Origin: Dyella halodurans
Lineage (GTDB): Bacteria; Pseudomonadota; Gammaproteobacteria; Xanthomonadales; Rhodanobacteraceae
DNA: 64,000 nt
Assembly: GCF_026283925.1 (NCBI RefSeq)
Contig: NZ_JAPDPF010000003.1
Span: forward strand, 124,001 to 188,000
Direction: 5' to 3'
Shown: positions 1,461 to 1,619 of the stretch, one piece after another
Layout: the number at the start of each line of letters is the position of its first letter
Position numbering within the stretch: the first letter of the stretch is position 1
Made by a program: the position numbers and the translations under genes
The notes under the pieces: generated by a model
The model's input: only the letters and a program-made list of their open reading frames with translations
Told to the model about the DNA's origin: nothing
Databases searched by the model: none

Positions 1461-1504
1461 CGATGTGTCCCTGGCCGCGGACAGTGCGGCCCCTGGACCT
1501 ATCT

Positions 1505-1522
1505 GAGCAAGCGGCGTGCCAA
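1505..1522 (-). promoter_or_regulatory. sigma-54 (RpoN) promoter of the adaptor/ABC operon
   Basis: On the minus strand the sequence TTGGCACGCCGCTTGCTC matches the RpoN consensus YTGGCACG-N4-TTGCW, with the invariant GG (-24) and GC (-12) correctly spaced. It lies about 45 bp before the adaptor start codon, leaving room for a short leader. A promoter of this kind needs an AAA+ enhancer-binding activator, and GGACA half-sites lie 60-115 bp upstream of it. Confidence 0.8.
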
Positions 1523-1580
1523 CTCAAAATCGATGCTTTATATGTGTATTTTCAACATGTTATTGGATGCCATCCGAAGC

Positions 1581-1619
1581 GGACAGCTGTCCGCGGACAA
1601 CTGGACGGACAAACGGACA
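1581..1619. promoter_or_regulatory. GGACA/TGTCC half-site array, candidate enhancer-binding-protein sites
   Basis: Two overlapping perfect 12-bp palindromes, GGACAGCTGTCC (1581-1592) and TGTCCGCGGACA (1588-1599), are followed by two direct GGACA copies (1607-1611 and 1615-1619). The array sits upstream of the sigma-54 promoter at typical enhancer distance. The regulator that binds it is not in the window. Confidence 0.65.

Follow-up and report, generated by a model that had tools for sequence, protein, structure and literature searches.

The sequence element upstream of the adaptor gene is very probably a sigma-54 promoter with its enhancer, part of an envelope-export regulon that activates its own expression. 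Comparison across genomes, from which the target families are known, indicates that it is one promoter among many in a multi-gene regulon, and its architecture, conservation, phased spacing and operon content were established in the same way. The preliminary description, made from a single window (the whole 64,000-nt stretch analysed, G000:C19:124001-188000, where G000 is the source genome), had found a real element and its interpretation is supported; the wider meaning, the regulon, lay beyond what could be seen there.

The promoter, TGGCACG-CCGC-TTGCT, with its -24 and -12 elements, lies at positions 1506-1521 on the minus strand. Read from 1521 to 1506 the site is TGGCACGCCGCTTGCT, which matches the consensus TGGCACGNNNNTTGCW without mismatch in a scan of the window; what had been described as a near-perfect RpoN promoter before the adaptor gene is thus an exact one. 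This is the only exact match to TGGCACGNNNNTTGCW in the window and, with up to two mismatches allowed, there are 10 matches against 16.85 expected, i.e. fewer than expected. The whole genome (4.69 Mb) holds eight exact copies of the promoter pattern and none of the pattern read backwards. The GG and GC elements of a sigma-54 promoter are in place at 1506-1521 within TGGCACG-N4-TTGCW, and TGGCAC[GA]N4TTGC is kept at the adaptor promoter in 19 of the 20 genomes of the genus Dyella, with TGGCAT in the remaining one. We infer that transcription of the adaptor operon would be RpoN-dependent. Just 5' of the adaptor start codon is a leader inverted repeat, GGCCGC-N7-GCGGCC (1473-1491, minus strand), a form found in 19 of 20 genus genomes, that may control translation of the adaptor. 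Upstream of the promoter are a 231-aa ORF (1635-2330) with no Pfam match, and a HemP hemin-uptake gene (PF10636, 2356-2655) with a Fur-box-like stretch, identified by eye, upstream of it near 2605-2630.

The core of the operator is the palindrome TGTCCGCGGACA (TGTCC-GC-GGACA) at 1588-1599, 66 bp from the -24 element, and two direct GGACA half-sites follow on the plus strand at 1607-1611 and 1615-1619. Alignment of the adaptor promoters shows TGTCCGCGGACA and both direct half-sites, at fixed spacing, in 20/20 genus genomes, so the GGACA sites reported earlier are indeed conserved in relatives. Both of the overlapping perfect palindromes reported with them are present, but only TGTCCGCGGACA is constrained: the second, GGACAGCTGTCC (GGACA-N2-TGTCC, 1581-1592), depends on an additional TGTCC, an accessory half-site, and the resulting pair occurs in 12 of the 20 genomes. 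The array is therefore conserved, but not in the form GGACA-N2-TGTCC that had been proposed for searching relatives; we abandoned that motif because the genus alignment shows TGTCC-GC-GGACA to be the conserved palindrome. An outer palindrome, CGTCCGCGGACG, which is exact in 11/20 genus genomes, has a degraded counterpart in the window at 1621-1631, recognisable from the alignment.

Beyond the genus, half-sites average 3.62 per 95 nt in 29 divergent adaptor promoters (30 upstream sequences were taken, and L250 was dropped as a misfit to the promoter expression), compared with 0.23 in dinucleotide shuffles. At least three half-sites are found in 22 of the 29 and fewer in seven, with none in L239 or L261. 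This enrichment, together with conservation and phasing, bears on whether the array could be a chance GC-rich repeat next to a chance promoter match. When up to two mismatches are tolerated, the number of palindromes in the window (5) does not exceed that in shuffles (5.39), as that idea would predict, but conservation and phasing led us to reject it, and we give it next to no credence. At TGTCCGCGGACA there is a conserved and helically phased upstream site, as expected of an enhancer.

A search for TGTCCGCGGAC followed after 42-72 nt by TGGCNC-N5-TTGC found matches in 67 of 299 genomes of the order, 64 of which are among the 76 genomes of the source genome's own family; these and the other cross-genome counts come from related genomes and are not independent of one another. 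The reversed control of the palindrome-promoter pattern gave 0 in every row listed, and the palindrome alone occurs three to five times per genus genome, its reversed control at most once. Among 150 listed matches, the gap after TGTCCGCGGAC is 44-45 (4 matches), 56-59 (18) or 64-70 (128), with no other values inside the search range of 42-72; any bands above 72 fall outside that range. The three bands are about one helical turn apart, which is the spacing expected if the activator must occupy one face of the helix.

Among 94 distinct promoters, 47 precede small ORFs of one family beginning MKFE, 2 other small ORFs, 26 an adaptor gene, 8 a permease gene, 9 a hydrolase gene and 2 other genes; this is a non-random sample, of which 30 loci were taken as returned and most others picked from the regulon match list. 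Another set, 80 loci listed out of at least 120 stretches, comprises 53 adaptors, 20 small proteins, 3 permeases and 4 others. In both sets ORF starts were assigned by a simple start-plus-ribosome-site rule, and some may be wrong. The source genome has four such promoters, upstream of the adaptor operon, an alpha/beta hydrolase gene (C11:164236) and small genes at C11:716021 and C22:234544; the S33-type Pfam assignment of the hydrolase was obtained on its homologue L171. There are four exact palindromes in this genome, three of them with a promoter; the copy of TGTCCGCGGACA at C21:385229, though exact, stands without a nearby promoter matching the search pattern. A looser pattern added a single match, TGTCCG with TGGC-N7-TTGC at C1:142870-142941. 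At L155 in G266 a promoter of this type lies before a gene of the TolC family (PF02321, E 1.3e-55), possibly encoding the outer-membrane partner of the exporter.

Genera in which promoters of this kind precede MIRDTSAQD-like adaptor genes include Xanthomonas, Stenotrophomonas, Pseudoxanthomonas, Lysobacter, Tahibacter, Roseateles, Mitsuaria and Rheinheimera. The strict regulon pattern matched nothing in family f2, which we take to be Xanthomonadaceae; since arrays are present there, this blank reflects a limit of the pattern, the promoters often having NTGC. In two genomes of family f4 (G086 and G093; loci L063 and L064) the same enhancer-promoter arrangement lies before an unrelated 55-aa ORF, MNYRRSTRAQ..., with what is presumably an Ada-like ORF further downstream.

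The promoter before the adaptor gene heads a long operon on the minus strand. The first gene, at 189-1460, encodes a periplasmic adaptor of the HlyD/RND-MFP type with the N-terminus MIRDTSAQD; a separate ABC ATPase gene starts within 1-128, and the operon runs on outside the window. There it comprises the rest of the ATPase gene, eight FtsX-type permease genes in four A-B pairs, genes for a DUF885 protein and a PDZ protein, an NtrC-like activator gene (C19:108763-110121) and a histidine kinase gene (C19:106937-108319), with SPFH and NfeD genes following the kinase on the minus strand. Across 20 genomes, 22 regions, some of them truncated at their ends, show the gene order adaptor, ATPase, A-B pairs, activator and kinase. 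The kinase is present in 18 of the 19 regions that have the activator (the exception is G050). Permease pairs vary in these regions from one (e.g. G050, G077 and G253) to five or more, with extra irregular permease pieces in G211 and G051. In 13 complete operons (from 16 regions, mostly Rhodanobacter) there are four to eight pairs in strict A-B order, so that a single ATPase is accompanied by one to eight pairs overall. Across the 22 regions, identity to the Dyella proteins is 72-97% for the ATPase and as low as 29% for the permeases. The exporter appears to grow through the addition of permease pairs.

The preliminary description took this for a MacA-type adaptor/ABC exporter operon. An adaptor/ABC exporter is what we found, and the adaptor passes the general RND_mfp model (134.8, cut-off 94.9), as it would in ordinary MacAB-type multidrug efflux. 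However, the adaptor falls far below the cut-off of the MacA equivalog (59.5 versus 342), and the ATPase is a separate chain of 240 aa, unfused to any permease, that serves one to eight permease pairs. On these grounds we rejected MacAB proper, and we regard multidrug efflux of that ordinary kind as unlikely.

A cognate regulator had been predicted to lie downstream, outside the window, along with a histidine kinase; the same operon indeed encodes both, side by side. The activator has the domains of an enhancer-binding protein: a receiver, an AAA+ domain (PF00158, 222 bits) with a GAYTGA loop and a Fis-type HTH (HTH_8, 44.5 bits). Relatives at E 1e-90 or better are found in 197 of 299 order genomes. 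A search for divergent adaptors gave 34 matches in 32 genomes, at 30 loci; activator and adaptor share a contig, with 17 kb or less between them, in 27 of the 30 genomes for which both places are listed (G071 and G022 have no listed activator place). In the other three (G070, G246 and G030) they are separated, and in G246 and G030 they are on different contigs. The recognition helix SRQALYRR is intact in 18/18 aligned orthologues, though HTH identity drops to 59%. We infer that the operon-encoded activator binds the TGTCC half-sites. Another activator of the genome could do so instead, with the operon-encoded protein working elsewhere: the source genome has six full sigma-54 activators, all of them putative binders, and three weak partial matches, and G106, a one-contig genome, retains a promoter of this kind before a small gene while lacking both an adaptor match and a close activator (best 6e-72). 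Nonetheless, we think this improbable, given the proximity of activator and adaptor in 27/30 divergent genomes and the joint retention of helix and half-site, with the other five activators having different helices, none of them SRQALYRR.

The commonest targets in our sample of 94, at 47 promoters, are members of one unannotated family of 27-73 aa with a single TM segment, MKFExxxLRSLFxACLLVCGLxLxAM. Each of the 47 contains a single stretch of 19 residues that is strongly hydrophobic, and M1, E4, L8 and M26 are invariant in 28 aligned members. The N-terminal TM segment is constant and the tails vary, with a CALPPDGVVCPR-like loop in many; members of 27-31 aa are a TM helix and little else. No match in Pfam, NCBIfam or PHROGs was common to more than three of the 28 members. 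The long Dyella form lies upstream of a gene beginning MLHVILFRPEIPPNTGN, presumably trmL. This 67-aa form is under purifying selection, with 1002 synonymous and 262 nonsynonymous single-base codon differences in pairwise comparison of 16 distinct sequences; the TM segment across 39 diverse members has no synonymous excess (3193 versus 3251), which saturation may explain.

Family matches occur in 67/299 order genomes; two of those within f1 (which we take to be Rhodanobacteraceae) and the three outside it are marginal (E 0.0009 to 0.008). Among the 76 genomes of Dyella's family, 61 have both the promoter and the small family, 3 the promoter only, 1 the family only and 11 neither; the corresponding counts for an activator at least 80% identical are 60, 0, 2 and 14, which are not phylogenetically independent, and in both tables matches near E 0.006 (G031 and G306) were scored as absent. 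At 20 further small-protein loci outside the regulon match list, a relaxed -24/-12 promoter and half-sites were found in 20/20, two of them by eye. The circuit thus appears, from these associations, also to turn on tiny membrane proteins in soil bacteria related to Dyella. There was no convincing match in the f2 genomes searched, though the operon is present there, and the small proteins therefore cannot be the exporter's only purpose. Six near-identical dispersed copies in G210 (L402-L407), each a unit of about 500 bp or more with a sigma-54 promoter and a 43-aa family member, look as if a promoter and small-protein cassette spreads. On a contig labelled Candidatus Eremiobacteraeota (L285), probably misbinned, a small protein resembling those of Dyella is encoded, with the start of the MLHVIL gene next to it.

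We propose that the kinase adjoining the activator phosphorylates this NtrC-like response regulator, which, encoded near the end of the same operon, would bind the TGTCC half-sites, TGTCCGCGGACA above all. The bound activator would then loop to sigma-54 polymerase sitting on the -24/-12 elements and open it. The predicted output is one adaptor, one ATPase and a variable number of paired FtsX/MacB-type permeases, with unlinked outputs in Dyella's family that would include small one-TM proteins, lone permeases, an S33-type alpha/beta hydrolase and, rarely, a TolC-family channel. Positive feedback would follow from this arrangement; that feedback, the signal and the outward export of peptides are among the deduced parts of the scheme.

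The function of the circuit can be read in more than one way. We entertain only tentatively a combinatorial peptide export, in which as many as eight interchangeable pairs of permeases share one ATPase and one adaptor, with the small proteins as substrates or substrate-specific partners; that the small proteins are cargo or partners of particular pairs is likewise doubtful. A better prospect, though still short of even, is detoxification and sensing with unchanged regulation, in which the kinase senses the working transporter, as in Bce systems, the regulon removes antimicrobial peptides and the small proteins serve to tune the membrane or to protect it. The two hydrophobic segments of the kinase (near residues 13-31 and 55-78) are separated by only a short stretch, FtsX permeases share its operon, and the 27-31 aa proteins have little beyond the TM helix, all of which fit such a BceAB-like role. 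By contrast, the adaptor and the co-regulated TolC-family gene, the latter in one genome (L155), indicate outward export through the outer membrane, as in the envelope-export reading that we prefer.

For this sigma-54 circuit, found from Dyella to Xanthomonas and Stenotrophomonas, we now have an operator, a list of targets and a candidate for the activator, and a family of small proteins without a shared database match has come to light. Apart from two papers, our literature search found none on this operator or small-protein family; the parts consulted of a study of RpoN in Xanthomonas (PMC7280030) make no mention of the operon, and the main text of Francke 2011 (PMC3162934), as far as consulted, has no FtsX or MacB. 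The first of the two, a computational survey from 2025, reports that in gamma-Proteobacteria, Opitutia and Bacteroidia the targets of sigma-54 are enriched in COG0577 permeases (PMC12316311); the portions available to us contain no mention of an activator site, an operon or small proteins. The second describes, in the portions we consulted, dssA of Rhodanobacter R179, which encodes an ABC permease within an operon of 17 genes, has orthologues reported to be largely conserved in Xanthomonadales and is needed for full suppression of plant-root immunity, mutants partly losing suppression of flg22-induced root growth inhibition (PMC11928319). The likeness is an ABC permease gene in a large operon, and our comparison is one of gene numbers, the R179 locus itself being outside it: nine complete Rhodanobacter operons have, from adaptor to kinase, 13 to 20 recognised genes (17 in G180), counting only genes with a BLAST match to the Dyella operon. 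Because of these numbers we consider it somewhat probable that the two operons are the same. If so, a conserved plant-immunity phenotype would gain its regulation and candidate cargo, and the question of the substrate would become directly testable. Were combinatorial export also to hold, which we rather doubt, it would provide the secretion that underlies dssA-dependent suppression of immunity in plant-associated members.

Several characterised systems share parts of this arrangement. For the activator, none of the 25 NCBIfam models listed, out of 95 matched, reaches its cut-off, the best being AtoC (359.8 versus 714). DarBCD, the darobactin exporter, is among the best curated relatives of the adaptor and ATPase, but the scores are below cut-off (DarC 78.6 versus 450 bits; DarD 258.3 versus 375) and we rejected that assignment. 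ADOP (TIGR03434) is matched in its first half by the first A permease and in its second half by the first B permease; here, however, these are two separate genes, scoring 157.1 and 176 against a whole-model cut-off of 622.3 (permeases 1 and 2 were scanned). MacAB-TolC likewise combines an adaptor with FtsX/MacB_PCD permeases, but here the ATPase is separate and the A-B pairs vary in number. AtoSC, NtrBC and PrsKR, of the NtrC family, have in common with the Dyella system a receiver-AAA+-Fis HTH activator next to a kinase and a -24/-12 promoter with an upstream enhancer; here, instead, the operator is TGTCCGCGGACA and the targets are an exporter and small proteins.
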